Virus record (IMG/VR): IMGVR_UViG_3300047562_001637 | Location: 1-20,856 of that record | Length of the DNA: 20,856 nt | Reading direction: 5' to 3' (one strand) | DNA from: a virus | Shown here: positions 1 to 20,654 of the stretch, piece by piece | How the letters are laid out: each line of letters begins with the position of its first letter | Position numbering within the stretch: position 1 is the stretch's first letter | Position numbers and translations under genes: made by a program | Notes under the pieces: model-generated | Database searches by the model: none | Seen by the model: the letters and a program-made list of their open reading frames with translations, nothing else | What the model was told of the DNA's origin: nothing

Positions 1-12
1 TTTAGGATTCAT
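1..12 (-). CDS. Start of a gene running off the left edge (first four codons)
   Basis: An ATG on the minus strand (complement of 10-12) is followed by three sense codons (N-P-K) before the window ends. It sits 6 nt downstream of a TAAATA late-promoter core, the same arrangement as for other genes here, and 12 nt after the gp17 stop codon. Nothing can be said about the product. In T4 the gene after 17 is 18, but the sheath gene lies elsewhere in this window, so it is not expected to be gp18. Confidence 0.5.
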
Positions 13-17
13 GTAGT

Positions 18-26
18 GTATTTATT
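18..26 (-). promoter_or_regulatory. Late-promoter core for the left-edge gene
   Basis: The minus strand reads AATAAATAC, matching the T4 late consensus TATAAATA, and overlaps the gp17 stop codon. TAAATA is followed by 6 nt (CACTAC) and then ATG. No Shine-Dalgarno sequence is present between them. Confidence 0.6.
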
Positions 27-1620
27 ATCCCGTGAATGATCCAAATATGGGCATCGGGGCGGTGAATTCCGAGGTCCTGTTGGTCCACTTCTCGAAGATC
101 TTTGGATCAAAATCCGCCAACACCTTCATCATACGCGTCATCAGTAGGCACGCACTGACTAGATCGTCATGCTGTCCAGGCTTGGCCTTGTAGCTCATTC
201 CGGTCGCTACGAAGTCCTTGAGTTCTGATATCAGTAGTTGTGAGTTGATCTTCATCTTGTCGTTCTCTATCAACTCCTTGAATTTTGTACAGGCATCTAT
301 CTTGTGTTTTGCGGTGGTGTTGAATCCCCTCCTGAATTTCCTCCTGTGCCCTTTCCTTATCGGTTCACTCAGGAACATTCCCATGATGTTCTCCTCACCT
401 ATGTCCATCACACGCATCAGCGCGGCCTCCCCTATGGTGTTGTTCTCCATTGAGTAGAATATCTGTGGCGTGGCAGTGGAATCCTGTTCCAGTATGGTGT
501 CATGTATGTGCTTGTTGATTCCCTGTAGTATGCGAACCTGCTGGTTCATGGGAGTCATGTTGTGATGCCATTCGCCCACTTGCTCGAATGTTGGCAGTTC
601 GAAAACCTGTATTGCGGCGTAGTCTCCGCCCGTACCCATGCTGGGATCTAGGCTGGTCAGGTATGTGTGTCCAGGTGTTGGACGTTTGAACCAACGCACT
701 TGTCCTGTGGTCTCCACTGGTGGCACACCTTCCATGTCCGCAAGTGTTATGCTGTTGATCAATGTCTCATCAAAGATCAAGAACTCACATTCGTGTTCCC
801 TACGGAATCTCTCTTCACCAATCCTGGCACGTTCCGCGTCTGCCCATGCTTCATCTCGGTCAGGATGTTCTGACCAGTGCGCCTTCATGGCGTAGAACCC
901 GTTGGTGCCTGTAACTTTATCATTGCCGTACTCGTCAAATCTCTTGTTGGCCTCTTTCCAGATCATGGCGAACTGGTCCTCGTCCGAGTTGGGTGTTGAA
1001 GTGATCATGCACTTACCACCTGTACTCAATGTCGGTGACAGTGATGTCCAGAACTCCCTGGCCTTCTCTGGCGGTTGCACGAATGCGAACTCATCACAGT
1101 AGATAAGTGTGAGTGACATACCCCTACCGGTGTTCTCTGTGGTAGTGGTTGCCATTATCTTTGAACCATTGTCGAATTCTATGCTGTTCCTGTTGTACTG
1201 TGTGACTCCGGCCTTGATCCAACTGGGCAACATCTCGTATGCGTAACGCACCCTTGACATGATGTCTGATGCACCCGCGTATTTGTGTGCGGCTATCAGG
1301 ATCTGTGAGTCTGGCCTGAACATGGCGTACCATATAAGATAGCCCGAAGCACACGTGGTCTTGCCGGTCTGCCTGGGTAGCATGGCTATACTGAATCTGT
1401 GATTGTTGTAGCTCTCGATCAAGCGTTCCTGATATGGGAAGGGTTTGAACTTCACGGAACCCTTGACAGGGTGTTGTATCAACATGAATTCCTGCATGAA
1501 GTATAGAGGACCCGTCTTGGGATCCATGCACTTCTCGAGCTTCTCTACCTGTTCCTTGGTGTATTTGTGTTTCTTGTGCGCCTTCTTGATCTGGTCGCTG
1601 TCTAGTGATACATATGCCAT
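25..1620 (-). CDS. gp17: Terminase large subunit gp17 (packaging ATPase-nuclease)
   Basis: This is the motor that pumps DNA into the prohead through the portal and cuts the concatemer at headful. The 531-aa protein has an N-terminal ATPase with Walker A LPRQTGKTT (residues 81-89, K87), Walker B LIYCDE (D176, E177) and a coupling motif TSTP (207-210). The C-terminal RNase H-like nuclease has its acidic residues at D325 (SLDPS), E392 (SMENN) and D485/D486 (QHDDL). It is shorter than T4 gp17 (610 aa) but complete. The ATG at 1620 is 7 nt from a TAAATA core and has no Shine-Dalgarno sequence. It is the last complete gene of the leftward packaging block. Arg codons are often AGG, including tandem AGG-AGG near residues 426-431. 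Confidence 0.97.
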   Translation of the reverse strand: MAYVSLDSDQIKKAHKKHKYTKEQVEKLEKCMDPKTGPLYFMQEFMLIQHPVKGSVKFKPFPYQERLIESYNNHRFSIAMLPRQTGKTTCASGYLIWYAMFRPDSQILIAAHKYAGASDIMSRVRYAYEMLPSWIKAGVTQYNRNSIEFDNGSKIMATTTTENTGRGMSLTLIYCDEFAFVQPPEKAREFWTSLSPTLSTGGKCMITSTPNSDEDQFAMIWKEANKRFDEYGNDKVTGTNGFYAMKAHWSEHPDRDEAWADAERARIGEERFRREHECEFLIFDETLINSITLADMEGVPPVETTGQVRWFKRPTPGHTYLTSLDPSMGTGGDYAAIQVFELPTFEQVGEWHHNMTPMNQQVRILQGINKHIHDTILEQDSTATPQIFYSMENNTIGEAALMRVMDIGEENIMGMFLSEPIRKGHRRKFRRGFNTTAKHKIDACTKFKELIENDKMKINSQLLISELKDFVATGMSYKAKPGQHDDLVSACLLMTRMMKVLADFDPKIFEKWTNRTSEFTAPMPIFGSFTG

Positions 1621-1626
1621 AGTGTA

Positions 1627-1635
1627 GTATTTACG
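1627..1635 (-). promoter_or_regulatory. Late-promoter core for gp17
   Basis: The minus strand reads CGTAAATAC, ending 7 nt before the gp17 ATG, in the 39-nt gap after the 297-aa gene. By T4 spacing the start site falls about +3 relative to the A of the ATG, so little or no leader is predicted. Confidence 0.6.
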
Positions 1636-1659
1636 ATGGGAGATGTAATGCGAAAAGTA

Positions 1660-2553
1660 TTACTTTTGCGATTTCTCTATGCTCTTGGCTATGTCGTGAG
1701 CCTTCTTGATCGTGCTCTTTTCAAGAGGTGGTTTGTCACCCGTTGACTTCATAGCCTGTGCCATTCCGATCGCATACGGTGACTTGGCCTTTTTGGCTTC
1801 TGTTTGGTATTGTGATTTGAAGCTCTCATACTGTGCTCTCAGGCTGTTGGCAAGTTCTTCTTCTGTGATCTTGTCTTCTTGAGCAACTGCCATGGCATTG
1901 TCTCCGTCCTGTGCTTTCGCAAACTGTTGTTTACGTCTGTTCAATCCACCTGAGTGTACATTCACTAAAGTGTCTATATCTGAAACTTTCTCTTCAGGTT
2001 CATTTGCGAATGTCTCTTCAGCCTTCTCTTCATCTGGTGCTGTGACCATGTTTCTGAACTTGGCCATTTCATCACCGTCCGTGCCGTGATCTGCCGCTGG
2101 TTCTTCCGCACCGATCATTGCCGCGTCAACTGGCTTTACTCCTGCCAATGCAAGTATCTGCATCATCATTGATGCTTCTTGTGGGCTGTCTGTTGAAATC
2201 TGTATCGCTTCGTTGACTGATTCTTTCTTCGTCTCTTTGTCTTTGATGGCCTTCTTCATTGGCTCTTTCTTGTCACCGTCCTTGTCCATGTCTAGGAAGT
2301 CTGGTTTACTTTTGCTCTCTGTTGCCTCCTGTGATCCATTGATTGAGTCCCAGAAACCTGCCAGGCTCTTGCCGTGTTTCTTGATGAATTCTTCTCTTGA
2401 AAGTTTCTCTGCCTCGTCGTGTAGGTAGTCCTTCATCCTACTCTCGTCCACTTTTGGATTGGTCCTTGACACGTTGTCCACAGCGTCTTTGACCAATTCT
2501 GGTCTTGATTCTGCTATCTCTTTTAGTTTCTGTAATACGTCAATCATTTCCAT
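1660..2553 (-). CDS. Conserved virion-associated protein of marine T4-like phages (297 aa), function unknown
   Basis: I know no function for this protein. It is very hydrophilic, rich in K, E and D, with no membrane segment or signal peptide. Residues 88-94 form D-M-D-K-D-G-D, the pattern of a DxDxDG calcium-binding loop, followed by a highly charged helix. A second short segment near residues 120-145 (Q-E-A-S-M-M-M-Q) is hydrophobic and helical. The C-terminal 60 residues are basic and Ala/Lys-rich. The gene starts 3 nt after the stop of the 200-aa gene, and AAGGAAA lies about 8 nt upstream of the ATG at 2553, so it is probably translationally coupled. Position between genes 16 and 17 and similarity, from memory, to oceanic T4-like virion proteins suggest a head or packaging role. 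That is inference. Confidence 0.7.
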   Translation of the reverse strand: MEMIDVLQKLKEIAESRPELVKDAVDNVSRTNPKVDESRMKDYLHDEAEKLSREEFIKKHGKSLAGFWDSINGSQEATESKSKPDFLDMDKDGDKKEPMKKAIKDKETKKESVNEAIQISTDSPQEASMMMQILALAGVKPVDAAMIGAEEPAADHGTDGDEMAKFRNMVTAPDEEKAEETFANEPEEKVSDIDTLVNVHSGGLNRRKQQFAKAQDGDNAMAVAQEDKITEEELANSLRAQYESFKSQYQTEAKKAKSPYAIGMAQAMKSTGDKPPLEKSTIKKAHDIAKSIEKSQK

Positions 2554-2556
2554 GGC

Positions 2557-3153
2557 TTATTTCCTTTTTGGGTCTGGGTGTGGGTTTGATGCTTTTGACA
2601 GAGGACTTGGTGTTCCTTTTTCCTCTATGTGACTTTGAACTCCGGTCTCACCACCCTTTGGATGGTCCTTGTTCTCTTGTCTGTCTTTTAATAATTCTTT
2701 GAGCAGGCTCATGTTGGCATTTGTGCTGTGGAAGTCTTCTGGATTAATTTTTGCCATGTCTGAATACTCGATATCGTGCAGTTTGTTCCTGTATTCTGAT
2801 TTGATCTGCATGTCGGCCTGGTATTGCTCTGTTGGCTCGCCTGGTTTCCTCACCACGATGTGTGTGGCCGGTACCCTCATCCTGTCTGAAAGGTATTCTT
2901 TTAGTTCTCTCACTGACACAGGATAGTTTGTTGTGACGTCAAAGATTGTGACTTCTTCGTTGCTCAACATTGGGAAATCTAATGGCATGGTCATAATGGG
3001 CGTTTTCTTGCCTGCTGACATCTTGGCCACTTCAAACTTGGCCAGTGCTGTTTCCATCTTGTTGGCGAAATCCTTGTCAATAGCGCCTGCTACCTTGATT
3101 TTGTAGTCATAAGACTTTACTGATTCTGCTAGATAGTCCTTAAACGTGCTCAT
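2557..3153 (-). CDS. Conserved structural protein of marine T4-like phages (198 aa)
   Basis: The function is unknown. The N-terminal half (roughly residues 10-110) reads as a compact alpha/beta domain: YDYKIKVAGAID, then a helix, then M-T-M-P-L-D-F-P and VTIFDVTTNYPVSVREL. This pattern recurs in virion proteins of cyanophage-type T4-like phages as I recall them. The rest is charged, low-complexity and probably disordered, ending in a Pro/Lys-rich tail. I chose the ATG at 3153 rather than the in-frame TTG two codons upstream, because the ATG lies 6 nt after a TAAATA core. It is followed after 3 nt by the 297-aa gene. Confidence 0.75.
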   Translation of the reverse strand: MSTFKDYLAESVKSYDYKIKVAGAIDKDFANKMETALAKFEVAKMSAGKKTPIMTMPLDFPMLSNEEVTIFDVTTNYPVSVRELKEYLSDRMRVPATHIVVRKPGEPTEQYQADMQIKSEYRNKLHDIEYSDMAKINPEDFHSTNANMSLLKELLKDRQENKDHPKGGETGVQSHIEEKGTPSPLSKASNPHPDPKRK

Positions 3154-3159
3154 ATGCAA

Positions 3160-3166
3160 TATTTAG
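3160..3166 (-). promoter_or_regulatory. Late-promoter core inside the gp16 stop codon
   Basis: The minus strand reads CTAAATA. Its TAA is the stop codon of gp16, and six bases later comes the ATG of the 200-aa gene. No Shine-Dalgarno sequence is present. Confidence 0.55.
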
Positions 3167-3693
3167 TCTTTTTTTAATAGTTTCTTCATTAATTCGTTAC
3201 GGTCGGATATGACGAATCCATCGCTTTCCTCTATGGGACCACCGTCTTTTTGGCTGTCTTTGTCCAATTTCATCTTTTTGAGCTGTAGTTCTACCATTTT
3301 CAACTTCTTGTCTATCTTACTACTCTTGGCATCTATGGCGTTGCGCAGGAAGTTGCCTGCCACTTCGAATATACGCCCGGAATAGCGTGAGTCCACGTTC
3401 ATACCCAAGTCCATTAGATTCTTGTAACTCTCCTCGGCCTCTATGGCCAGTTTGTCTAATTCTAGATCTGACAGTTCCCCCAGTCCTTTTACTTGTGGCA
3501 GTGCGGCCGCTATCTTGTCAAACTCTGCGTAGCTCTTCTCTAGATTCCTCTTGGTTTGTGGATCTAGGTTGTTGCCCGTCGTACCACTGTTGGCGGTCTC
3601 CTTCAGTTTCTTGTCCTTTTCCTTCTTGTCGACTTCCTTGAACGCTTCCTTGACGTTTGGTAAATTCAAAATGTCTTCTAATTTCTTTGTCAT
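3163..3693 (-). CDS. gp16: Terminase small subunit gp16
   Basis: gp16 forms a ring that regulates gp17 and binds DNA at initiation of packaging. The 176-aa length matches T4 gp16 (164 aa). It shows the family layout. An N-terminal D-I-L-N-L-P element (residues 7-12) is followed by a charged linker. A helical core follows, with S-G-R-I-F-E-V-A-G (105-113) and a long amphipathic helix, N-A-I-D-A-K-S-S-K onward to about 145, which is the predicted oligomerisation coiled coil. A charged C-terminal tail ends in KKLLKKD. The ATG at 3693 lies 5 nt after TAAATA and 8 nt after the gp4 stop. Identification rests on pattern and on position between gp4 and gp17. Confidence 0.85.
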   Translation of the reverse strand: MTKKLEDILNLPNVKEAFKEVDKKEKDKKLKETANSGTTGNNLDPQTKRNLEKSYAEFDKIAAALPQVKGLGELSDLELDKLAIEAEESYKNLMDLGMNVDSRYSGRIFEVAGNFLRNAIDAKSSKIDKKLKMVELQLKKMKLDKDSQKDGGPIEESDGFVISDRNELMKKLLKKD

Positions 3694-3698
3694 CGTCT

Positions 3699-3705
3699 TA
3701 TTTAC
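3699..3705 (-). promoter_or_regulatory. Late-promoter core inside the gp4 stop codon
   Basis: The minus strand reads GTAAATA, where TAA is the stop of gp4. AGACG and then the gp16 ATG follow. The 5-nt spacing puts the expected T4-type start site on the A of the ATG. Confidence 0.55.
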
Positions 3706-4142
3706 TTACGTTTACCGTTATGGAACAGTTGCTCTTCTGACACCACCCTGAACTTGATCCTCCTCTGCTTGGCGTATGCTGAGGCGGCCTCCCACTTGGC
3801 CATGTTGATCACCACCTGTTTCTTCTTGGCCTGGCTACGTCCCGCTGACTCCATGGTGGTCTGGCTCATGGGTTTGACCTCGACCATCTCGGCGTGTTTG
3901 CGACCTTCCTTGTCTTGGTAAACTATGAAGAAGTCTGGCACGTACACGGTGTACTTGCCCGTGAACGGATGTCGGTAAGGTATCTTGATCGATTCGCTGG
4001 CCCATTGGTACACGTTGGGGTGTTCGTCACACAATCTCATGAAGGCGTGTTCCCAGCTCGACCTGTATGTGGGTGTCTTGGTGCCCACGTATTTCTCCGC
4101 GTTCTTGGGGGAGAACTTGCCCCTAGCGAATCTCGGTATCAT
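3702..4142 (-). CDS. gp4: Head-completion protein gp4 (PD-(D/E)XK nuclease-like)
   Basis: In T4, gp4 (also called gp50/gp4) acts after packaging to finish the head so that the tail can join. The 146-aa protein matches T4 gp4 (150 aa) along its length: a basic N-terminus, YRSSWEHAF (residues 26-34) with E31, WASESIKIPY (47-56) with E50, PDFFI (69-73) with D70, and VEVKP (87-91) with E88 and K90. The PD...EVK pair is the signature of the restriction-endonuclease fold. The C-terminal motif RIKFRVVSEE is also shared. Its ATG overlaps the stop of the 125-aa gene by one base (TAATG), so translation is probably coupled. Confidence 0.92.
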   Translation of the reverse strand: MIPRFARGKFSPKNAEKYVGTKTPTYRSSWEHAFMRLCDEHPNVYQWASESIKIPYRHPFTGKYTVYVPDFFIVYQDKEGRKHAEMVEVKPMSQTTMESAGRSQAKKKQVVINMAKWEAASAYAKQRRIKFRVVSEEQLFHNGKRK

Positions 4143-4519
4143 TAGTCTATGATGTTCCTGGACACGGTCTCTTTCGTGGTCAAGGTCTGCCTCACACCCA
4201 ACCTGCTGGACTTGTATCTGTTGGCGTTCAGTATTATGGTGATCAGTTCTGACAGCAGTGCCGGTGAGGCGTAGGTCAGTTTGTCTAGTATCTCCTGTGG
4301 TTTGATGTCATCGATCTTGGCCTGTGACAGTATGGCGTATGCCGTTGACTCCGCCGCCGTCCTGGAGAATCCTCGCTTGACGAAGAACGCTATGGTGCTG
4401 TCGTACTCACCCACGTTGAATTGGTATTCCGTCTCGTAGTTGGACGTGGTCAGTTTCTCTATGGTCTTGTCTAGGTCGTCCTTGTCTTTGGGTGGTAAGT
4501 TTGTGTAGAATTCAGTCAT
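4142..4519 (-). CDS. Small conserved virion protein of marine T4-like phages (125 aa)
   Basis: The function is unknown. It appears all-helical: Y-D-S-T-I-A-F-F-V-K-R-G-F (about residues 39-51), an Ala-rich helix, then L-D-K-L-T and L-L-S-E-L-I-T-I-I-L-N-A-N-R-Y-K. It ends in S-R-N-I-I-D. I recall proteins of this length, with the same F-F-x-K-R-G-F motif and a terminal RNI, next to gp4 in oceanic T4-like genomes. It is interlocked on both sides by one-base TAATG overlaps with the tube-fold gene and with gp4, so the three form one translational unit. AGGA lies 5 nt upstream of the ATG. Confidence 0.75.
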   Translation of the reverse strand: MTEFYTNLPPKDKDDLDKTIEKLTTSNYETEYQFNVGEYDSTIAFFVKRGFSRTAAESTAYAILSQAKIDDIKPQEILDKLTYASPALLSELITIILNANRYKSSRLGVRQTLTTKETVSRNIID

Positions 4520-5904
4520 TATAATCCTGCTTTCTCTGTGACTATTTCAACGTTTTGTGACGAACGTTCGATTTTTATATATCCTTCGGTCACTAGTTTT
4601 CTAATATCTGTAATTACTTTATTAGTATACACTGTTTTTATATTGTCAGATGATCCCGCATATTCCACATCAGACTCTGCTACAGTTAATCCTTTCCTAG
4701 AACCAATGTCTTTATAATAGATACCTGCCGCTATTTTGTCACGGATTGTGCTGTTATTTGATATCAAGTTAAATGCCTCATCCGAACTTAAAAAATTAAT
4801 TGTGTCTATTGTTGGATTGGATATGACTGTATTGTTCTGTCTAGTGTTATTATCAACTGTACCCTTTGAGGATGATAGAATAACGGCTCCTGCCACAGCC
4901 GCCCCTACGGAAAACTGTGCTATTGGATTTGTTATGGATCCTGCCTGTTTGCCAATTTCTAATATACCTTCCTTGGCTATTCCTTTGAGTTCTGCTTTTA
5001 CATCTTTTTTTCTAATTTTTTTAGCATTGTTGTAGGTATTAGATGCTGAAAGAATTGCACCTAGAATATTTCCCGACTGCACATTCCTAATCACTGATCC
5101 TATGCCATCAACAACCCCACCGGGACCAAAAATTGAATTTGTACCTCCTCCAAGCACAGTCAACGGTGATGGTTCATTATCATAATGTATTGTTGCAAAT
5201 CCAGGCACATTGTTCCTATTGATAATTCCTGACTTATAAATCACAGTTTCATAAAGTATTTGCATGGTGTTGCTCATAACACCTGCACCATCGGTCTGAT
5301 CGAGATTATCATGACTGAACGATCCTATTACCGGATTGACTAGTGTCATTGATGTAAATCTTTGTTTATGTAAAACAAAAATCTCAATACCTTTTAAGTA
5401 TGGTCTTTTTCTTTGATTGGGTGTGTCCATTCCGAACTTGTTGGTTCTCTTGTCTCCCCAGTCGTAGAGATCATCCTTGGTCTCCGCTATCTGTAGGTCT
5501 GAATTCATTGACACGGAATCCGCTATGTGGTACTCGTAGTATTTCTTCCAGAACGCGTTCACGGTGTCCGCGTGGTCATCATGGAAAGTGATGTTGACGG
5601 GCTCGTACGCTATCCTTGTGGCCGCGTACATCTTCTTGTTGTACTGTGTCTTCTCCTCCACGCTCATGTTGTACTTGGGTAGGTCACAGCTCTTGACCAG
5701 CATGTTTAATTCATAACTTTCATTGCTGTTGAATCTGTCCACGAACAGTGTCTCGTCCGTGTTGAACACCACGTGGAACAGGAACTTTTGTTTGGGCATC
5801 AACTTGTGATTGTTGTCGATGTACAATCTTGACGCGTGGCGGTAGTCCTTCATCCCGGGAAGACCGTCTTGGAACCCTTGTAAAAAATTGTTAATGCTTG
5901 GCAT
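4519..5904 (-). CDS. Tail-tube-fold structural protein (461 aa), possible gp54-like tube initiator
   Basis: The N-terminal ~250 residues look like a divergent tail-tube fold. RIAYEPVNITFHDD followed by a helical F-W-K-K-Y-Y-E-Y-H, then strands LKGIEIFVLHKQ, VNPVIGSFSHDNLD and LYETVIYKSG, parallels the strand order of gp19 encoded just upstream. The C-terminal ~200 residues contain a Gly/Ala-rich helical stretch (A-V-A-G-A-V-I-L, possibly membrane-active or an oligomer contact) and a small C-terminal domain. A role as baseplate tube initiator (T4 gp54) or tail completion protein is inference. I start at the ATG at 5904. A GTG six codons upstream would lie beyond the late promoter, next to the terminator. 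GC content falls sharply in the C-terminal two thirds, suggesting mosaic origin. Confidence 0.7.
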   Translation of the reverse strand: MPSINNFLQGFQDGLPGMKDYRHASRLYIDNNHKLMPKQKFLFHVVFNTDETLFVDRFNSNESYELNMLVKSCDLPKYNMSVEEKTQYNKKMYAATRIAYEPVNITFHDDHADTVNAFWKKYYEYHIADSVSMNSDLQIAETKDDLYDWGDKRTNKFGMDTPNQRKRPYLKGIEIFVLHKQRFTSMTLVNPVIGSFSHDNLDQTDGAGVMSNTMQILYETVIYKSGIINRNNVPGFATIHYDNEPSPLTVLGGGTNSIFGPGGVVDGIGSVIRNVQSGNILGAILSASNTYNNAKKIRKKDVKAELKGIAKEGILEIGKQAGSITNPIAQFSVGAAVAGAVILSSSKGTVDNNTRQNNTVISNPTIDTINFLSSDEAFNLISNNSTIRDKIAAGIYYKDIGSRKGLTVAESDVEYAGSSDNIKTVYTNKVITDIRKLVTEGYIKIERSSQNVEIVTEKAGL

Positions 5905-5908
5905 ATGC

Positions 5909-5918
5909 GTATTTATGG
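5909..5918 (-). promoter_or_regulatory. Late promoter for the tube-fold gene
   Basis: The minus strand reads CCATAAATAC, immediately beyond the U-tract of the gp19 terminator. TAAATA is followed by 5 nt and ATG, with no Shine-Dalgarno sequence. This restarts transcription just after termination. Confidence 0.65.
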
Positions 5919-5922
5919 CCAC

Positions 5923-5950
5923 AAAAAAAGCGCCATATAAAGGCGCTTTT
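5923..5950 (-). terminator. Rho-independent terminator after gp19
   Basis: A perfect 9-bp stem AAAAGCGCC/GGCGCTTTT (arms 5926-5934 and 5942-5950) with a 7-nt loop is followed on the minus strand by seven T residues. It lies 26 nt beyond the gp19 stop. The stem is flanked by A and T on both sides, so it could work in either direction. Confidence 0.9.
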
Positions 5951-5976
5951 GATGTTTATAATTGCTTGTTTGATTC

Positions 5977-6603
5977 TTACTGTCCACCACCAGTACTTAA
6001 GGTACCGATAGTTCTCGCGACTGCCGTGCCAATTCCAGTTCCTTGTGGGGTCTGTATAGCGTTGTCGTATCTGATTGACATCGTGATGGTCACTGGTTCT
6101 GAAGTTTGGTATGCTAAAGTATTGTAGTTAACGTTCTCTACATATGCACCGTACAACTCAAATGTCTCTAACACGTTTGGTGCTGATGCGCCATTACCAC
6201 CATCTAGCATTTCAATCCTACCTGTGAATTTGTAGTCGATGCCTGATGCCGCACTTGACTGTTCAAAGAAGTCAAACTGTTTCTGTATCTGCTCACCGAC
6301 CAGTTTGGTCACTGAGTTGTTGACATCATCCCTTAGTGTGATCGTGATCGGATCCCAAGTGTGTTTGCCCGCAACGTATACTTTTGAGTTGTACACATCT
6401 AATGTTACTGTGTCAAAAGTAAGGTTCGGTCTTGTGATATCCATCACCTGTTTGGTTAGTTCTGATCTCGGTGTTGATACTCCAAAGTTCTCCAGGATCG
6501 CTCTGAAACGATACTGTAGTTTTGGCATCAATAAGCCCTGTGATGCCGAGCTCTGATCGTTTGCTAAAGGTACTGTGAATTTTGATAAAGTTGATATTGC
6601 CAT
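5977..6603 (-). CDS. gp19: Tail tube protein gp19
   Basis: gp19 polymerises into the inner tube inside the sheath and carries DNA into the host. The 208-aa protein is somewhat longer than T4 gp19 (163 aa). It shows the expected beta-rich order: L-M-P-K-L-Q-Y-R-F-R (26-35), L-T-K-Q-V-M-D-I-T-R-P-N-L, T-W-D-P-I-T-I-T-L-R-D-D, a long helix around Q-I-Q-K-Q-F-D-F-F, then E-T-F-E-L-Y-G-A-Y-V and PVTITMSIRYDNA. It ends in a Gly-rich tail (G-G-G-Q). It starts 23 nt after the sheath stop with a good Shine-Dalgarno sequence (AGGAG), as expected for a protein needed in many copies, and a strong terminator follows. Confidence 0.95.
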   Translation of the reverse strand: MAISTLSKFTVPLANDQSSASQGLLMPKLQYRFRAILENFGVSTPRSELTKQVMDITRPNLTFDTVTLDVYNSKVYVAGKHTWDPITITLRDDVNNSVTKLVGEQIQKQFDFFEQSSAASGIDYKFTGRIEMLDGGNGASAPNVLETFELYGAYVENVNYNTLAYQTSEPVTITMSIRYDNAIQTPQGTGIGTAVARTIGTLSTGGGQ

Positions 6604-6613
6604 CTGTTTCTCC

Positions 6614-6621
6614 TATTTATT
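6614..6621 (-). promoter_or_regulatory. Possible late-promoter core and Shine-Dalgarno site before gp19
   Basis: The minus strand reads AATAAATA directly followed by GGAGAAACAG and the gp19 ATG. With T4 geometry the RNA start would fall just after the Shine-Dalgarno sequence, so gp19 may instead be read from the gp18 message. It is weaker than the other cores as a promoter call. Confidence 0.35.
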
Positions 6622-6626
6622 CAAAA

Positions 6627-9600
6627 TTAGTTCCCCAATTTTGCGATTTCTCCTGTGTTTTTGATTCTCAACGGTATGTAGATAAACTCGACCGACTTCA
6701 CTGGTTCGATCGCGATGTCCACGTACAGTTCATTCCTGTCGATCCTTGTGGGTGTGTTGTTTGTGTCATCACACACTACTAGGAAGTCGTATAACGCTCT
6801 CTGACCAACTAGCTCTAACAAGAATGATTCGATCGCACCCCTGATCTCGTTCCTTGTCAGCTCATCATTTGGTTCAAATATGAAAGGTTTGGCTATTGCA
6901 TCCAGTTGTGATCTCAGATACACTGCCAATCTTGAAACGTTGATCCTGTCCAATGCTGAGCTTGACGCGGTCTTGGTCAAATTACCAAAGTTCACGATGC
7001 CCGCTCCTGAGAAGAACGTGATCGGGTTCACTTTGACTTCATGCATCGAGTCTCTCACTGACTCCGTAACAGATATTGTTTGGAATTCACCACTTGATGA
7101 ATCGATGTAACCAACTGATGTGGCGTTGTCCACGACACCTCTCCTTGTGCCCGCTGGTGCGAACCATGGGAAAGCGATGTTGTCGTTGTTGGCCAGTGTC
7201 CTCATCATCATGTGTGATGCTGGCACCACGATCGATTTGCCTGTGTTGTCTGTGGTCAATCCTGATGGGTAGAACACTCCCAGGTAATCACTTGAGCTAA
7301 CAAGTCCGTCCTCACCATTGTCCAGTGCTGACGCTGAGTTGTTGGCCCAGTTCTGTATCGCTGTGGATGTGCCCACCAATCTTAGAGGTGTGTCACCTAC
7401 CACGAACGCAGTGTTGTTCCTGTCCGTGTTCAGATTGATCATGTTCTGTATCACTTCTGGATAGCCAGGACAAGCGATCACGTTGTAACCTCTTTGGTCT
7501 TCCCTGATTGCTTGGTTGGTGTCTATCTCAGATTTCAATTGCTCAACGATGACCTTTCTCTGTGCTTTTCTTCCGAAAGTGCCAGAGCCGTCCGCATTGT
7601 TGCTGGACTTGGTCACCCATCTGTCTGGGTAGTATGTTGACACAGATTCATTGCTGTATCTGATGTTACCCAAACCGGTTGATCCGCTTCCTGGGTACTT
7701 GGTCGTTGTGATGTAACTGTTCTTGTACTCCTTGACGTTGTAACCAGATCTCCTAGTGTTCCATAACAAGATACCCTGTGGGTAGTTGTCCGGGTTTGGA
7801 GCATCTGGATCTAGGAAATCATCGCTCAATAAGTTCTTGATTGTTGATGGTGTTCCCGCCGCGGTCGATGTGCCCGCCGCTTTGTCAGTTGAAGTGTGCC
7901 ATCTGGCGTCCGCGAAAACTATACCGTCCTCTGTGGTCTGGTCCGCTTTGTCGATAGCCACCCACGCCGCGCCCGAAGTGGTCACTGCCACTTGGTTGGC
8001 CGTGTTGCTTGAACTCAGTGTCGCCGCCGTGTTGTATTTGTAGATCTTTGGATAGTTCTCAAGGTCGCTGGTGTCAATCCATAAGTCGTTGTCAACTAGA
8101 GCAGTACCATCCGACTGTGTGGTGGGTGCTGTCGCTGAGAACTGTGGACCATTTGGATCGGTCGAACTGTAGACTTGAGCGTAGCCTTTCCATGTTGTTC
8201 CATTGTGCGTCATGATGTCCGCGACATCTATGTTAGAGTCATACCACAATGTGCCATCTGCTGGCTCATTTGTTGGTGCGCTCGTTGACGCTGTGTAACT
8301 CAATCTCTTCCAGTTACTGGCCACGATACCTGTGTTGGCGCTTGAGTCAAGGCTCTCACCTGTTGGCAGGTCATACAAGTTGTCGATCAGCGTTGAGCTG
8401 TTCGCTGTATATGTTCCATAACTGTGTGCCGTTGAAGCGCTGAATCCAGCATCTGCCAGTGGAGTTCCTTGTGTGTCGAACATCCTGAATTCACCACCCA
8501 GTTTGTGTGTCATCCTGATCTCACCGGTCGTCAGTTTGGTTGCGCTGACGTTGGTCAGTCCAGCACCATTTACTGCCGCGATGAAATCATCCGCGCCTGT
8601 ACCGCCGAGTGTTATCTCAACAGCAGTGGCCAATGCTTCTTGGTTCTTCTTTGATTCCTGGATCTTGAACTTGTCTCCACTTGTGAAACTTGGTGAAGTG
8701 TCATTACTTGTGATAATTGTGGCACCACCCTCGTATCTGAACAACTGGAAGTCACCCACGTTTGGAGTGGTGTCGGTGGCATCTCCCGCTGTCATCGACT
8801 CTTCAGTCACGTTGTACTGTGTGTAAAGTGTTCCTACTGTTAGGCCTGTTCCGCCATTCGCTGGATCTAGGTTGTAGATCGCTGAGTGGTTTGTGGCATA
8901 CAATGGAGCCGCAACTGCCGAGAAGCTCGCACTTGATGTGCTGTAAACTTTGGCAACAATGTTGGCACCAGCATTTGCGTTGGTAGTCTTGAACCATACA
9001 GAACCATTAGGTCTGTTCTCGTCTGCTGTTTTCCATGTGGGCCTGTTGGTGTGTTTGTCCTGAAGGAATTTAACACCGTTCTTGACACCTGCTGTGATCC
9101 CCAATTGAGCTAGTACTCCATTACCTTCATCAAATCTGATTGTGTTGGCACCCGCCGATGAATCACCCACCGCTCTACCGTTGTGGAAGATCTCTAGGTT
9201 ACCTGTTGTGGCATTAACACTCGCACTGACGTTGGTCACGTTAGATCCGATCGCTGTGGCAACATCTGATAATGCTGTTCCGCCCGGAGTGATCGTGATA
9301 CCGTTCATGACAAATGTATTGCCCGATGTTACTGTTGTTCCAGATGCTACTGTAACCACAGGTAAAGAATTGTGCCAGTCTGACGATCCAACCTGCACCC
9401 AGGTGTTGCTCGCCGTCTTCTTGTAGATCTTGTTGGTCACGTGAGTCGTGTTGATCGCGTAACTGCCAATCGTTCCTATTGAAGTCTTTGGTGCACCAGT
9501 AGACACCGCGCCAACTAGGTCACTTGTTGAAGTGATCAATATAGGAGTGATTGTTGTGAATGATTGATTTGTTGCTGACCATTCGAATATACCATACGTG

Positions 9601-10025
9601 CTTGATGCAAGGTCAAACCAGTATGTGCCATCTGTTGGTGTTGCCGTTGGAGCCGTGGCGCTTCCGATCAAATCCGAAGTGTCAACGTTGGCTCTCAGAA
9701 CGTATGCCCTATTGGCAATTCCCAAGAAACTGTAGGCCGCTTGTAGACCCCATTCGTTCAATTCATAACCGTGTAGTGAATTTCCTGAGGCGTCCGTGTA
9801 GAATTTTGGATCTCCAAAAGTCTCTGTTAATTCTCTCTGTGACGAGATCAAGTAAGCAGTGTTGGCGTTAGCAGTTGTAGTTCCTGCCGCTGTGCCGTCT
9901 CCCGCCCCGTTGGTCTTGTCCTGTGATGATGCTACTATGAAAAGAGGTGTGGTACCCGCATCTGATGGTACGTAAAAACTTTCGTTTATTACTGAAACCT
10001 CTACTCCTGGTGATGTTAAAGCCAT
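6627..10025 (-). CDS. gp18: Tail sheath protein gp18, giant form with inserted surface modules
   Basis: gp18 forms the contractile sheath. At 1132 aa it is far longer than T4 gp18 (659 aa). The N-terminus (SPGVEVSVIN, residues 4-13; A-Y-L-I-S-S-Q-R-E-L-T-E-T-F-G-D-P near 57-74) and the C-terminal third (from about residue 750; N-V-I-A-C-P-G-Y-P, F-P-W-F-A-P-A-G-T-R-R-G, then N-P-I-T-F-F-S-G-A-G-I-V-N-F-G and the final 150 residues) are canonical sheath. Between about 130 and 750 lie short D-G-T-x-W-[FY]-D elements and two modules of roughly 80 residues resembling the flagellin/hook IN motif. I start at the ATG at 10025 because AAGGAG lies about 10 nt upstream. An upstream in-frame extension reaching 10163 would cross the promoter and the opposite gene. 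Confidence 0.95.
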   Translation of the reverse strand: MALTSPGVEVSVINESFYVPSDAGTTPLFIVASSQDKTNGAGDGTAAGTTTANANTAYLISSQRELTETFGDPKFYTDASGNSLHGYELNEWGLQAAYSFLGIANRAYVLRANVDTSDLIGSATAPTATPTDGTYWFDLASSTYGIFEWSATNQSFTTITPILITSTSDLVGAVSTGAPKTSIGTIGSYAINTTHVTNKIYKKTASNTWVQVGSSDWHNSLPVVTVASGTTVTSGNTFVMNGITITPGGTALSDVATAIGSNVTNVSASVNATTGNLEIFHNGRAVGDSSAGANTIRFDEGNGVLAQLGITAGVKNGVKFLQDKHTNRPTWKTADENRPNGSVWFKTTNANAGANIVAKVYSTSSASFSAVAAPLYATNHSAIYNLDPANGGTGLTVGTLYTQYNVTEESMTAGDATDTTPNVGDFQLFRYEGGATIITSNDTSPSFTSGDKFKIQESKKNQEALATAVEITLGGTGADDFIAAVNGAGLTNVSATKLTTGEIRMTHKLGGEFRMFDTQGTPLADAGFSASTAHSYGTYTANSSTLIDNLYDLPTGESLDSSANTGIVASNWKRLSYTASTSAPTNEPADGTLWYDSNIDVADIMTHNGTTWKGYAQVYSSTDPNGPQFSATAPTTQSDGTALVDNDLWIDTSDLENYPKIYKYNTAATLSSSNTANQVAVTTSGAAWVAIDKADQTTEDGIVFADARWHTSTDKAAGTSTAAGTPSTIKNLLSDDFLDPDAPNPDNYPQGILLWNTRRSGYNVKEYKNSYITTTKYPGSGSTGLGNIRYSNESVSTYYPDRWVTKSSNNADGSGTFGRKAQRKVIVEQLKSEIDTNQAIREDQRGYNVIACPGYPEVIQNMINLNTDRNNTAFVVGDTPLRLVGTSTAIQNWANNSASALDNGEDGLVSSSDYLGVFYPSGLTTDNTGKSIVVPASHMMMRTLANNDNIAFPWFAPAGTRRGVVDNATSVGYIDSSSGEFQTISVTESVRDSMHEVKVNPITFFSGAGIVNFGNLTKTASSSALDRINVSRLAVYLRSQLDAIAKPFIFEPNDELTRNEIRGAIESFLLELVGQRALYDFLVVCDDTNNTPTRIDRNELYVDIAIEPVKSVEFIYIPLRIKNTGEIAKLGN

Positions 10026-10063
10026 TTTTCGTTTTCTCCTTGCAAGTTTAACGTATACAGAGT

Positions 10064-10071
10064 TATTTATT
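10064..10071 (-). promoter_or_regulatory. Late-promoter core for gp18
   Basis: The minus strand reads AATAAATA 38 nt before the gp18 ATG, leaving a leader of about 32 nt that contains AAGGAG. This is a conventional leadered late promoter, unlike the leaderless set. Confidence 0.6.
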
Positions 10072-10114
10072 ATTATCATACGGTTTTGTTGACATAATTT
10101 ACCGTTTTCCAGGT

Positions 10115-10126
10115 GCCTATATAGGC
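10115..10126. promoter_or_regulatory. 12-bp perfect palindrome between divergent promoters
   Basis: GCCTATATAGGC is a perfect palindrome lying 4 nt upstream of the TAAATA core of the plus-strand gene, in the divergent region with gp18. It could be an operator for a dimeric regulator or chance. A TTGACA lies at 10089-10094 but has no -10 box at usable spacing. Confidence 0.25.
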
Positions 10127-10130
10127 GACG

Positions 10131-10136
10131 TAAATA
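10131..10136 (+). promoter_or_regulatory. Late-promoter core for the eight-cysteine protein
   Basis: TAAATA is followed by CACAC and ATG. The 5-nt spacing predicts transcription starting on the ATG itself. No Shine-Dalgarno sequence is present. Confidence 0.6.
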
Positions 10137-10141
10137 CACAC

Positions 10142-10501
10142 ATGCGATATCCTGATAGACCATTGTGCAAGGAGTGTAGGACTAAACCCAGGGCCTATGC
10201 CTATCGCCGAGGAGATAGGGTGTACTGGCGTAGCCTGTGTGACACCTGCAACAGGAAACGTGTGGGTAAAAGGGTGGGCGGCATAACTGCCCTACAGCGT
10301 TCGGGTTACAAGAAGCATCGTAAGTGTGAACTATGTGGATTCAAAGCACAGGACAAAGCACAGTTGGACGTGCTGTTCGTGGATGGGAATCTGAGGAATA
10401 CGGCGGCTACTAATCTAAAAACAGTTTGTGCCAATTGCCAGCGGTTGGCTGGGGTCCGTAGACTCGGATGGCGTGTGGGAGATCTTATTGCCGACGATTA
10501 G
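10142..10501 (+). CDS. Small zinc-binding protein related to HNH nucleases, catalytic histidines missing
   Basis: The 119-aa basic protein has four Cys pairs: C9/C12, C33/C36, C62/C65 and C96/C99, enough for two four-cysteine zinc sites. The C-terminal half follows the HNH layout: C-x-x-C, a hydrophobic strand, F-V-D-G-N (79-83), then N-L-K-T-V-C-A-N-C-Q (91-100). The positions normally holding the catalytic His before Asp-Gly-Asn and after the last Cys are occupied by other residues (F-V and Q). A nuclease is therefore doubtful, and DNA or RNA binding is more likely. I recall similar proteins in other marine T4-like phages, unassigned. Its last 87 bases are antisense to the 3' end of gene 1. 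Confidence 0.75.
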   Translation: MRYPDRPLCKECRTKPRAYAYRRGDRVYWRSLCDTCNRKRVGKRVGGITALQRSGYKKHRKCELCGFKAQDKAQLDVLFVDGNLRNTAATNLKTVCANCQRLAGVRRLGWRVGDLIADD

Positions 10502-11068
10502 GTCATCGACTTTGCTGTATAGTTCCTCTTTTGTGCCATTGTTCTCTATGAGGTGATCGTACTCGGATTTGGCCCAGGCATATTCTGAGGAATGTATGTG
10601 TTCTGGTATCACATTGCCTTCCACGTAGTCAGTGAACCATTCGGGATCTGGTCCTCGTTTCACTAGCACTATCTTGCCTCCCATCTCTCGTATTGTCTTG
10701 ATCTCGTTTTCAAATCTCGTGTCCGCTATCACGGTGGGCTTGCCATTATACCTGGCCATGCAACTGTCAACCCACATGGCATCATGCATGTTCTGTCGCA
10801 TGACTTCGGTGCCAAAATACTGCAACACCCATCTGGGAGTCACATCCTTGCCAAAACGTTTACTCCAGAAAGCATCGGGTTTCTCACGCCATTCCCTGCT
10901 TTCTTTCGTCTTGCCTTCCAGCATGTCTCGGTCCCAGTTGAACATGGAACTCACCGCGTCCTTGAGGCTTTTCGCAAACGAGTCTTTCCTGAAACCGTGT
11001 TTCTGTGCCAGTCTATCAGACACCGTGTCTTTACCAGAACCTATCAATCCTACTACACCTATCAGCAT
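10415..11068 (-). CDS. gp1: Deoxynucleoside monophosphate kinase (T4 gp1 family)
   Basis: This enzyme phosphorylates dNMPs (in T4 dGMP, dTMP and hydroxymethyl-dCMP) to diphosphates using ATP, feeding phage DNA synthesis in the cytoplasm. The 217-aa protein begins with a P-loop, G-L-I-G-S-G-K-D-T (residues 7-15). It continues with F-A-K-S-L-K-D-A, R-W-V-L-Q-Y-F-G-T-E-V-M-R-Q and V-I-A-D-T-R-F-E-N-E, all standard for the family (T4 gp1 is 241 aa). The last ~25 residues (after D-D-L-I-V-G) do not look like family sequence and lie opposite the eight-cysteine gene. The ATG at 11068 is 6 nt after a TATAAT box, and no Shine-Dalgarno sequence is present. Confidence 0.9.
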   Translation of the reverse strand: MLIGVVGLIGSGKDTVSDRLAQKHGFRKDSFAKSLKDAVSSMFNWDRDMLEGKTKESREWREKPDAFWSKRFGKDVTPRWVLQYFGTEVMRQNMHDAMWVDSCMARYNGKPTVIADTRFENEIKTIREMGGKIVLVKRGPDPEWFTDYVEGNVIPEHIHSSEYAWAKSEYDHLIENNGTKEELYSKVDDLIVGNKISHTPSESTDPSQPLAIGTNCF

Positions 11069-11074
11069 AGCATT

Positions 11075-11103
11075 ATTATACTATCTTTTCAGACGTCTTT
11101 CAA
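11075..11103 (-). promoter_or_regulatory. Sigma70-type promoter for gene 1
   Basis: The minus strand has TTGAAA (11098-11103), a spacer of exactly 17 bp, and TATAAT (11075-11080). This is five of six -35 matches and a perfect -10. The -35 box lies inside the 60-aa gene, whose TAG stop touches the -10. The predicted start site is at or within a base or two of the gene 1 ATG. Confidence 0.75.
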
Positions 11104-11263
11104 TCTCTTTGATTGCTTCTTTGACAGATTTCAAGATGGAAATTCTCAGACCTTTTTTGTGCTGTTTAAGTGCGACAATGCTCATGTTCTCTAGATCCTG
11201 GACCAATGTTTCCAGTTCATCCAGTGTGAGGTCAGAGTAATTCTTGTAATTTTTTTTATCCAT
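11081..11263 (-). CDS. Small charged helical protein (60 aa), unknown
   Basis: I do not recognise this protein. It is strongly helical and charged (L-T-L-D-E-L-E-T-L-V-Q-D-L, later V-K-E-A-I-K-E-I-E-R-R-L-K-R), with heptad-like leucines suggesting a short coiled coil. It has no Cys and no membrane segment. The ATG at 11263 is preferred to the TTG one codon upstream. A TAAATA core ends 6 nt before it, and no Shine-Dalgarno sequence is visible. It sits between gp13 and gene 1, and its end contains the gene 1 promoter. Confidence 0.6.
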   Translation of the reverse strand: MDKKNYKNYSDLTLDELETLVQDLENMSIVALKQHKKGLRISILKSVKEAIKEIERRLKR

Positions 11264-11269
11264 CAATGT

Positions 11270-11276
11270 TATTTAG
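11270..11276 (-). promoter_or_regulatory. Late-promoter core for the 60-aa gene
   Basis: The minus strand reads CTAAATA followed by ACATTG and ATG, in the 30-nt gap after gp13. Confidence 0.5.
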
Positions 11277-11293
11277 ATGTGATTTGGTTGTAA

Positions 11294-12055
11294 TTAACCA
11301 ATAACAAAACTGTGCGGAGTTCCACCTTCTTGGAAGTTACCTATCTCACCGTCCAGTCTTTCCATGTCGGAATTACCTTCGTTCTTCAAGGCATCACCGT
11401 TCAGCGATGTACCACCCTGTGGACCGGCTATGGTGTTGAACTTGCCTCTGGCCTCGCCCAACATCACTTTACAAACTGCCAACGTGTAATCCCTGATCCA
11501 CGGCTTGGCGTAGATGTCCTTGAACAGTGTGATGTCCGGTCTGTAGTTGTCGGTGTGCATCAGCACGGTCTCGTTGTCGGCCCTGGGTCTCTGTGTTATT
11601 GTCAGTTTCTTGGTTGCCACATCAAAATGGAACTGTATGAAACTTCCAAACATCTTTCCCACAAGTTCTTGATAACTTGCGAAAGCGTAGTAAGTGGCCA
11701 ATCCGCCAGTGGCGCCTGCCCTTAAAAGATATGTGTTGGTGTAGGCCAGGTTGAACGGCTCGAAAAGTGTTCCGCCTTCTCCGCCTTCCGTCCTCGAACC
11801 CACGGTCCTCCTGTTGAGGTTTCTCACGTTGATCACCTCGTCTGGTAGGATGTATGAGTTTTGGTCTTTTTTCAGTTCCAGGAAAGCGTATGATTCTTCA
11901 ACAGCGTTTGATGATCTCTGTCTGTACCTGTTGACCGCCCTCTCCAGTGCCGTATGATAGTGTTTTGGATCCAATTCCACGTCGATCATGCCATCGCCGA
12001 GATTGTTCTTAACGTAATCAAATATTTCCTGTTGTCCTGTTTGGAGTTCTGACAT
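11294..12055 (-). CDS. gp13: Neck protein gp13
   Basis: gp13 and gp14 form the neck that closes the packaged head and receives the tail. The 253-aa protein (T4 gp13 is 309 aa) closely fits the oceanic T4-like form. It has E-I-F-D-Y-V-K-N-N-L-G-D-G, VELDPKHYHTALERAVNRY, EESYAFLELKKDQN, PFNLAYTNTYLLRAG, F-A-S-Y-Q-E-L-V-G-K-M-F-G-S-F, C-K-V-M-L-G-E-A-R-G-K-F, GPQGGTSLNGDALK and a terminal GGTPHSFVIG. An upstream ATG at 12061 lies inside the TAAATA core, so I take the ATG at 12055, which is 5 nt past it. Confidence 0.92.
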   Translation of the reverse strand: MSELQTGQQEIFDYVKNNLGDGMIDVELDPKHYHTALERAVNRYRQRSSNAVEESYAFLELKKDQNSYILPDEVINVRNLNRRTVGSRTEGGEGGTLFEPFNLAYTNTYLLRAGATGGLATYYAFASYQELVGKMFGSFIQFHFDVATKKLTITQRPRADNETVLMHTDNYRPDITLFKDIYAKPWIRDYTLAVCKVMLGEARGKFNTIAGPQGGTSLNGDALKNEGNSDMERLDGEIGNFQEGGTPHSFVIG

Positions 12056-12098
12056 ACTCATATTTATTGCCGTGACGCCAGCAATAAATATGTGTGAT
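12056..12098. promoter_or_regulatory. Divergent pair of late-promoter cores between gp13 and gp14
   Basis: Two AATAAATA elements face outward as an inverted repeat: minus-strand core 12061-12068 for gp13 and plus-strand core 12083-12090 for gp14, separated by a short GC-richer centre. The ATGs follow 5 nt and 8 nt after the cores, without Shine-Dalgarno sequences. The arms (CATATTTATTG and CAATAAATATG) are exact reverse complements. Confidence 0.7.
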
Positions 12099-13265
12099 AT
12101 GCCAAGATTATCCATTTTCAAGCCTGAAAAAGGCAATGACTACAAGTTCTTCGATCGCAACATCAAGGAGATGTTCCAGGTGGGTGGGACGGACCTACAC
12201 TTTCACAAGTACTTGGGGCCTTATGATCAGGGCGATACCAACAAGGATGGTCCAGCCAGTCCCACGCAACCGCAGTACTCTGGTGATAGCCTAAACGAGA
12301 GGACCATACAGGATCTACTATTCCTGGAGAACAGGGATAGGAAGTACGCCAGTGACGTGTACGTGGTCAGGGGCATATACAACGTGCAGGACGCGGATTT
12401 CAACCTGTCTCAGTTTGGCATGTTCCTACAGAATGACACATTGTTCCTGACAGTGCATCTGAACGACATAGTTGAGAGGATCGGTAGGAAACCCATGGCG
12501 GGAGACGTGATAGAATTCCCACACATGAAGGAAGATTACAGTTTAGATGAATCGATACCGATATCATTAAAGAGATATTATGTTGTGGAAGATGTAAACA
12601 GGGCCGCGGAAGGTTTCTCACAGACTTGGTGGCCGCACCTACTTAGGTTGAAAATGAAGACAATGGTGGATTCACAGGAATTCAAGGACATCATAGGTGA
12701 CGCCACAACAGCAGGTTCGATGGCCAGTTACATGAGCACCTACAACAGGGAGAAGACCATCAACGATCAGATAGTGGCACAGGCGGAGGCGGACGCTCCG
12801 AAGTCTGGGTTCAACTACAAACAGTATTACGTGGCCCCCATAGATGAGAGGGGCAACATCAGGACGGACAATGTCAACAGTATTGATCCTGTCAGTGGAG
12901 ATAAGACGATCAACGCCGTCATAGACACACCGGCCGCTTCACACTATGGCTTCTACCTAGACGGTGATGGTGTCGCACCAAACGGTAACCCAGCGGGATT
13001 TGGTATATCGTTCCCAACATCAAATGTTGACAAGGGAGATTACTTCCTGAGGACGGATTATCTACCGAATAGACTATTCCGTTTTGATGGAACCAGATGG
13101 GTCAAAATAGAGGACTCGGTGAGAATAACTACTACGAACAATGATTCACGTGCCAACTATAAAACAAGTTTTGTCAACAACTCAACCAGTTCGACCATTA
13201 ATGGATTGACTGTTGAACAGAGACAAGCACTCACGAACGCGTTGAAACCGAAGGCTGACAATTAA
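12099..13265 (+). CDS. gp14: Neck protein gp14 with C-terminal extension
   Basis: This is the partner of gp13 in the neck. The 388-aa protein is longer than T4 gp14 (256 aa). The core (about residues 60-210) carries Y-V-V-R-G-I-Y-N-V-Q-D-A-D-F-N-L-S-Q-F-G, N-D-T-L-F-L-T-V-H-L, A-G-D-V-I-E-F-P-H, R-Y-Y-V-V-E-D-V, T-W-W-P-H-L-L-R and DSQEFKDII, matching the oceanic T4-like gp14 I recall. The added C-terminal region contains one G-D-Y-F-L-R-T...R-F-D-G-T-R-W-V-K module (about 310-340). ATGs at 12090 and the GTG at 12072 lie in or before the promoter core, so the start is 12099. Of 21 Arg codons I count 12 AGG, 6 AGA and 3 CGN. It overlaps gp15 by one base. Confidence 0.88.
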   Translation: MPRLSIFKPEKGNDYKFFDRNIKEMFQVGGTDLHFHKYLGPYDQGDTNKDGPASPTQPQYSGDSLNERTIQDLLFLENRDRKYASDVYVVRGIYNVQDADFNLSQFGMFLQNDTLFLTVHLNDIVERIGRKPMAGDVIEFPHMKEDYSLDESIPISLKRYYVVEDVNRAAEGFSQTWWPHLLRLKMKTMVDSQEFKDIIGDATTAGSMASYMSTYNREKTINDQIVAQAEADAPKSGFNYKQYYVAPIDERGNIRTDNVNSIDPVSGDKTINAVIDTPAASHYGFYLDGDGVAPNGNPAGFGISFPTSNVDKGDYFLRTDYLPNRLFRFDGTRWVKIEDSVRITTTNNDSRANYKTSFVNNSTSSTINGLTVEQRQALTNALKPKADN

Positions 13266-14713: not shown

Positions 14714-14738
14714 TAAAACAACTTTAATCTGTTATAAT
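14710..14738 (+). promoter_or_regulatory. Sigma70-type promoter for the Nudix gene
   Basis: TTGATA (14710-14715), a spacer of exactly 17 bp and TATAAT (14733-14738) form a near-consensus host promoter. Only 5 nt separate the -10 from the ATG at 14744, so the message is predicted to start at or inside the start codon. Confidence 0.75.
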
Positions 14739-14743
14739 ACGGT

Positions 14744-18319: not shown

Positions 18320-18329
18320 GTATTTATGC
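18320..18329 (-). promoter_or_regulatory. Late promoter for the 1022-aa gene
   Basis: The minus strand reads GCATAAATAC, just beyond the T-run of the terminator. It leaves a leader of about 78 nt before the ATG at 18237. The identical 10-mer precedes the 737-aa gene. Confidence 0.65.
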
Positions 18330-18386: not shown

Positions 18387-18394
18387 TATTTATT
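18387..18394 (-). promoter_or_regulatory. Orphan late-promoter core upstream of a terminator
   Basis: AATAAATA on the minus strand overlaps the stop of the 737-aa gene and points at the terminator about 20 nt away. No gene lies between. It may be chance, or may make a terminated RNA of about 45 nt. A small hairpin CTACT/AGTAG lies at 18370-18383. Confidence 0.3.
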
Positions 18395-20644: not shown

Positions 20645-20654
20645 GTATTTATGC
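20645..20654 (-). promoter_or_regulatory. Late promoter for the 737-aa fibre gene
   Basis: The minus strand reads GCATAAATAC, 38 nt before the ATG at 20606. This leaves a leader that includes a GGGAG Shine-Dalgarno sequence. No terminator hairpin is apparent between it and the upstream gene. Confidence 0.65.

Follow-up and report, generated by a model that had tools for sequence, protein, structure and literature searches.

What does it mean for a phage gene when a late promoter core stands only 5–8 nt before its start codon? The question is raised by a 20,856-nt uncultured virus record (GC 47.9%), called the window below and analysed at its full length, in which nine genes carry the hexamer TAAATA at such distances from ATG. 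Our reading is that the late mRNAs of these nine genes would be leaderless or nearly so, transcribed from T4-type late promoters, and that the phage would thus possess two classes of translation initiation; we put the probability of this reading at about 0.88.

TAAATA boxes in the window

The DNA of the window belongs to the structural region of a jumbo-type phage in the T4 superfamily. Its PHROGs matches included the terminase large and small subunits, head closure, two tail-tube-fold proteins, an 1132-aa sheath, dNMP kinase, gp13, gp14/gp15-like neck proteins, NUDIX hydrolase and fibers. Nucleotide comparison of the window with cultured phages gave no match, and the nearest cultured phages by protein (terminase, sheath and gp14) were Atu_ph07, Phosso and PA5oct, with RaK2 also grouped there. 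Homologues of gp17 and gp14 are encoded by hundreds of uncultured relatives, with identities of 89–98% for the 80 best matches to each. The MAG bins of gp17 relatives (labeled Betaproteobacteria TMED41 and Pelagibacter) were too weak a basis for naming a host. No tRNA was found in the window, and two relatives have tRNAs. The two tail-tube-fold proteins are 461 aa long (4519–5904), with a leaderless-type start, and 208 aa long (5977–6603), with a Shine-Dalgarno sequence. The HNH-like 119-aa gene is convergent with the dNMP kinase gene and overlaps its 3′ end by 87 nt.

TAAATA occurs 14 times in the window (shuffles: mean 6.1, sd 2.3), and all 14 copies stand 5′ of genes: nine at 5–8 nt from ATG, one at 10 nt from the tube gene and four at 38–149 nt. 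The arrangement TAAATA-N5–8-ATG was found nine times, compared with a mean of 0.37 and a maximum of 2 in 100 shuffles, and each of the 14 other permutations of the hexamer occurred 0–3 times in this position. A sequence-only reading of this DNA had proposed nine such spacings, from 5 nt (gp16, 461-aa, eight-Cys and gp13 genes) to 8 nt (gp14), and all nine were recovered (Table 1).

Table 1. Promoter elements and gene starts in the window, with their conservation
Gene or feature (gene span)	Position	Strand	Arrangement	Relatives
Left-edge gene (cut)	10..24	-	TAAATA 24–19, 6-nt spacer, ATG 12–10; predicted leader 0 nt (C13/A12)	
gp17, terminase large subunit (25–1620)	1618..1633	-	TAAATA, 7-nt spacer, ATG	Spacing 7 in 51/53 unique relatives
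'200-aa' gene, virion structural protein (2557–3153)	3151..3165	-	TAAATA, 6-nt spacer, ATG	Spacing 6 in 33/33
gp16, terminase small subunit (3163–3693)	3691..3704	-	TAAATA, 5-nt spacer, ATG	Spacing 5 in 47/57
461-aa tail-tube-fold protein (4519–5904)	5902..5915	-	TAAATA, 5-nt spacer, ATG	Spacing 5 in 25/27
119-aa HNH-like eight-Cys protein (10142–10501)	10131..10144	+	TAAATA, 5-nt spacer, ATG	Spacing 5 in 35/37
60-aa protein (11081–11263)	11261..11275	-	TAAATA, 6-nt spacer, ATG	Spacing 6–8 in 48/49
gp13, head-tail adaptor (11294–12055)	12053..12066	-	TAAATA, 5-nt spacer, ATG	Spacing 5 in 33/33
gp14 (12099–13265)	12085..12101	+	TAAATA, 8-nt spacer, ATG; predicted 3-nt leader GAT	Spacing 8 in 33/33
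gp13/gp14 back-to-back late promoters	12053..12101	.	Divergent; cores 18 nt apart	Kept in 35 unique close relatives
208-aa tail tube core	6601..6619	-	TAAATAGGAGAAACAGATG; 10 nt from ATG, Shine-Dalgarno between	
Tail sheath late promoter, leadered	10064..10069	-	38 nt to ATG 10025; Shine-Dalgarno AAGGAGA	
737-aa fiber late promoter, leadered	20646..20651	-	39 nt; GGGAGA	
1022-aa fiber late promoter core, leadered	18321..18326	-	83 nt; second core 18387–18392 at 149 nt; AAGGAG	
dNMP kinase promoter (10415–11068)	11069..11103	-	TTGAAA-N17-TATAAT-N6-ATG, sigma70-type	
NUDIX hydrolase promoter (14744–15172)	14710..14743	+	TTGATA-N17-TATAAT-N5-ATG, sigma70-type	

The same reading held that none of the nine genes has a Shine-Dalgarno sequence. 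This is correct for eight of them, where the signal is weak or absent (+3.0 to −2.8 kcal/mol), but the left-edge gene has a value of −4.1; the GGG in question is located upstream of TAAATA and would not be transcribed. In the window and its relatives, the predicted transcribed part of leaderless-class starts contains few or no Shine-Dalgarno sequences. The clear Shine-Dalgarno sequences ascribed to the sheath, fiber and 297-aa genes were confirmed, with −7.3 to −8.0 kcal/mol for sheath, tube and both fibers and −4.9 for the 297-aa gene.

Several starts needed separate treatment. The '200-aa' gene encodes 198 aa when counted from the ATG adjacent to TAAATA, and its TAAATA holds the gp16 stop. 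In two of the nine cases (the 200-aa gene and gp16) the TAA of the hexamer is the upstream gene's stop codon; such an overlap (TAA-ATA) was rejected as the cause of the arrangement because it covers only these two. A further in-frame ATG lies within TAAATATG in both gp13 and gp14. For gp14 this ATG was rejected as the start, since the alignment with Atu_ph07, Phosso and PA5oct, in which M1 is invariant, favors the downstream ATG. At the tube gene (TAAATAGGAG) the late-type core is continuous with the Shine-Dalgarno sequence and its spacing is 10 nt in 14 of 21 relatives; there is no pyrimidine-purine step at bases 5/6 after the core, so this start is probably not leaderless, and it was left out of the leaderless class.

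Conservation and the two states of gp14

The earlier reading had proposed that TAAATA-to-ATG distances be compared with random expectation. They form a sharp peak at 5–8 nt together with a separate leadered class: among ATGs opening at least 60 codons in 160 relatives' loci, the spacing was 5 nt in 156 cases, 6 nt in 95, 7 nt in 61 and 8 nt in 83, against 2 at 4 nt, 2 at 9 nt and 0 at 11 nt, with many copies of the same genes included in these counts, and the second class lay at 37–39 and 56 nt. The lower edge at 5 nt is a hard one. The peak is present in the 160 relatives' loci, in four large relatives and in a 517-kb phage, and is missing from cultured T4-like phages. In an unbiased scan of hexamers and distances at 380 starts of the four large relatives, TAAATA ranked first at 6 nt and third at 5 nt, and TATAAT at 6 nt ranked fifth.

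When starts were taken from protein alignment and not from the motif, the spacing in relatives was gene-specific and almost constant (Table 1). Few or no Shine-Dalgarno-like tetramers preceded the close-spaced starts of the relatives, and such tetramers were universal in their 297-aa, gp15, tube, sheath and 1022-aa fiber genes and found at 16 of 17 genes for the 737-aa fiber. Start codons at spacings of 5–8 nt were almost only ATG (446, with 2 GTG and 2 TTG), as is expected of leaderless messages. The motif, its spacing and conservation, the absence of Shine-Dalgarno sequences and the exclusivity of AUG are direct observations, as is the initiator signature described below. The leaderless class comprises packaging proteins, neck proteins, the HNH-like protein and small proteins, and Shine-Dalgarno sequences precede the genes for the major capsid protein and the protease in the relative G001. 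This division suggests that high-copy proteins may be kept on the Shine-Dalgarno channel and that leaderless genes may be mostly low-copy parts of the virion or the packaging machinery.

The gp14 gene occurs in both states. Among 161 orthologues, the promoter was 4–8 nt from ATG in 109 (104 without a Shine-Dalgarno sequence) and 18–33 nt away in 51 (46 with one); intermediate spacings were absent, and one orthologue had no TAAATA. In Atu_ph07, Phosso and PA5oct, the gp14 promoters are 19–28 nt away, with a Shine-Dalgarno sequence. The gp14 protein tree requires at least six switches of state on supported branches, and the Shine-Dalgarno sequence tracks the leader in an average of 5.5 out of 6 independent gp14 pairs, never in the opposite direction (median p 0.03). 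Two initiation classes set by promoter position, as the sequence-only reading had supposed, are supported for the window phage and would extend to its relatives, given their two spacing classes and the gp14 states. In most members of a second clade (L212–L242), gp14 is preceded at 5 nt by an extended core resembling GATAAATAGTANT. The closeness of the gp13 and gp14 cores in the window would mean that two polymerases are not easily bound simultaneously.

Start-site signature, proposed mechanism and alternatives

The T4 late promoter TATAAATA occupies positions −13 to −6 (PMC1524935), which places +1 at the sixth base after the core. The start about 6 nt past the core assumed in the earlier reading agrees with this and with a pyrimidine-purine signature at the same position in these phages. 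The hard lower edge at 5 nt, combined with the near-exclusive use of ATG, is a second signature pointing to the same +1. At the leadered promoters of these phages, whose bases after the core are not dictated by an ATG, the pyrimidine-purine step was found at positions 5/6 past the core in 32 of 46, compared with about 0.2 elsewhere (p 8e-12). With a spacing of 5 nt the purine of the step is the A of ATG in 17/18, with 8 nt it remains at 5/6 in 7/10, and with 6 nt it shifts to 6/7 (58%); gp16 in the window has no step at 5/6. A pyrimidine immediately precedes ATG at 36 of 53 leaderless starts versus 40 of 109 Shine-Dalgarno starts (p 2e-4). These step positions predict leaders of 0–3 nt, so that a +1 on or within a few bases of ATG, as had been claimed, would hold, but not strict leaderlessness for all nine: the messages of gp14, and perhaps of gp17 and the 60-aa gene, would retain 1–3 nt. 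The TAAATA core, the last six bases of TATAAATA, is present in the window, and the full octamer is not, with A at −12 in 4/9 and T at −13 in 0/9. Other T4-like phages likewise show little conservation at −13, and at −12 Aeh1 carries C (PMC1524935).

We propose that a gp55-type sigma factor of the phage recognizes the TAAATA boxes as late promoter cores of the T4 type. Transcription would begin at the sixth base past the core, or at the seventh if ATG is there, as in T4, which would put +1 of the nine window genes on the first base of ATG or at most 3 nt before it. A promoter so near ATG leaves no room for the usual ribosome-binding site, and translation would proceed by recognition of the 5′-terminal AUG without Shine-Dalgarno pairing. 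The sheath, tube and fiber genes and, in a relative, the major capsid gene would use ordinary Shine-Dalgarno sequences and, wherever a late promoter can be seen, a leader as well. The two classes, leaderless without and leadered with a Shine-Dalgarno sequence, would in this way be set by promoter position. A gp55 homologue is encoded by the relative G001 (E 6e-84) and a gp55-like sigma factor also by the 517-kb phage G013, both in relatives and outside the window fragment. The 5′ ends, recognition by gp55 and the mode of translation are what we infer from these patterns.

The foremost competing explanation, which we consider improbable, is that the functional mRNA is a longer read-through from upstream, the close promoters being secondary and translation relying on coupling or on Shine-Dalgarno-independent initiation on a leadered message. 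The genes are tightly packed, with the stop-codon overlaps at two of the nine boxes, translation of the 125-aa and 146-aa genes appears to be coupled to that of the 461-aa gene, and longer read-through mRNAs might be templates for operon-internal genes as well. However, the same arrangement is found at first-of-operon and divergent genes (gp13, gp14 and the 119-aa HNH-like gene), the initiator step at spacing 5 falls exactly at ATG, and the gp14 orthologues with a distant promoter nearly all have a Shine-Dalgarno sequence, all of which argues against read-through.

It is less probable still that TAAATA is an A/T-rich translation-initiation element and not a promoter, as in bacteria that rarely use Shine-Dalgarno sequences. 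Its constant short distance from ATG, without a Shine-Dalgarno sequence, would suit such an element, but TAAATA also stands 37–39 or 56 nt from other starts, including sheath and fiber starts with Shine-Dalgarno sequences, and its leadered copies have the initiator step at a fixed distance. Permuted A/T hexamers in relatives are not enriched to the same degree, and early-type genes carry a promoter, TTGANA-N17-TATAAT, in its place. Chance or start-codon mis-annotation, to which the mere nine cases of the window alone and the two genes with alternative in-frame ATGs might point, has a negligible probability, as it is contradicted by the shuffles and permuted hexamers, which rule out chance, and by alignment-based starts in ~160 relatives' loci, a second independent lineage and the invariant gp14 M1.

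The leaderless reading draws independent support from the window test, the tree test, the initiator test on distinct genes and the separate 517-kb lineage. A related placement is seen at the dNMP kinase and NUDIX hydrolase genes, both early-type, whose sigma70-type promoters appear to be positioned for leaderless mRNAs (Table 1). TATAAT with a −35-like element was conserved before dNMP kinase in 60/60 unique relatives, and TATAAT was 5–6 nt from the NUDIX ATG in 47/52. Over the 377 kb made up of the window and four large relatives, sigma70-like pairs peaked 5–7 nt from ATG, with 18 at 4–8 nt versus 10 and 7 at control distances, which are small numbers. Sigma70-type promoters with the same placement would mean that this phage lineage in general tolerates or favors leaderless starts.

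Breadth and comparison with known systems

Whole records of cultured phages had no excess of 5–8 nt spacings over control distances (Atu_ph07 39/48, PA5oct 43/50, Phosso 7/8, T6 21/20 and Syn19 7/8), nor had regions of about 41–43 kb from cultured phages. On the Atu_ph07 side of the tree, in a branch separate from the window clade, the uncultured 517-kb phage had 77 cases at 5–8 nt versus 25 in the control, with no excess at 9–12 nt (21 versus 20). In the 240 kb examined, 38 of its open frames lie at exactly 5 nt, with 0–4 at neighboring distances, and the initiator step falls at ATG in 37 of the 38. Dozens of genes in its loci (G013/L210 and L293–L304) have a TAAATA separated from ATG by exactly 5 nt. 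Neither the ribosomal protein bS21 nor IF3 was found in 12–13 relatives, which are mostly fragments, and phage-encoded versions of these were rejected as an explanation.

Uncultured jumbo T4-superfamily phages (the window clade, a GATAAATAG clade and the 517-kb phage) may have evolved leaderless late expression repeatedly. It would give them a second channel of translation, possibly adapted to a host, or to a ribosome state in infected cells, that favors a 5′-terminal AUG, and virion proteins of high copy number would stay with Shine-Dalgarno initiation; we offer this broader proposal tentatively, at somewhat less than even odds. If the leaderless reading is true, a phage sigma factor would here drive leaderless expression across an entire lineage, and the gp14 orthologues would form a natural series of a single gene that has switched at least six times between a leadered state with and a leaderless state without a Shine-Dalgarno sequence. 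Gene finders that lean on Shine-Dalgarno sequences can mis-call starts in such common uncultured phages, and the role of leaderless translation during infection becomes testable.

No precedent for leaderless transcripts of T4-like phages, cyanophages or jumbo phages was found in the literature covered, from which most subscription journals were absent. The window phage resembles T4, with its TATAAATA late promoters and gp55/gp33/gp45, in the TAAATA core, the gp55 homologue of its relatives, the predicted sixth-base start and the late structural genes downstream, and differs in that the TA at −13/−12 is not conserved. In the T4-type phages tested (T6, Syn19, phiN3, Cr30 and RaK2) the core is away from ATG, whereas here it abuts ATG without a Shine-Dalgarno sequence, and the jumbo T4-superfamily phages Atu_ph07, Phosso, PA5oct and RaK2 have no excess of close TAAATA, unlike the window clade. 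In Sinorhizobium meliloti, 171 leaderless mRNAs have been mapped, all of which begin with AUG (PMC3616915). The window messages would share with these the start at AUG, here predicted from DNA, the AUG-only start codon and the absence of a Shine-Dalgarno sequence, but the S. meliloti messages come from host promoters and a minority of genes, while those proposed here would depend mainly on a phage late sigma factor, be concentrated in virion and packaging genes and form one of two classes. The cI gene of phage lambda is a single leaderless phage gene, regulatory in function, whose mRNA starts at AUG; where lambda has this one regulatory gene, the window phage would have a genome-wide arrangement of late genes.
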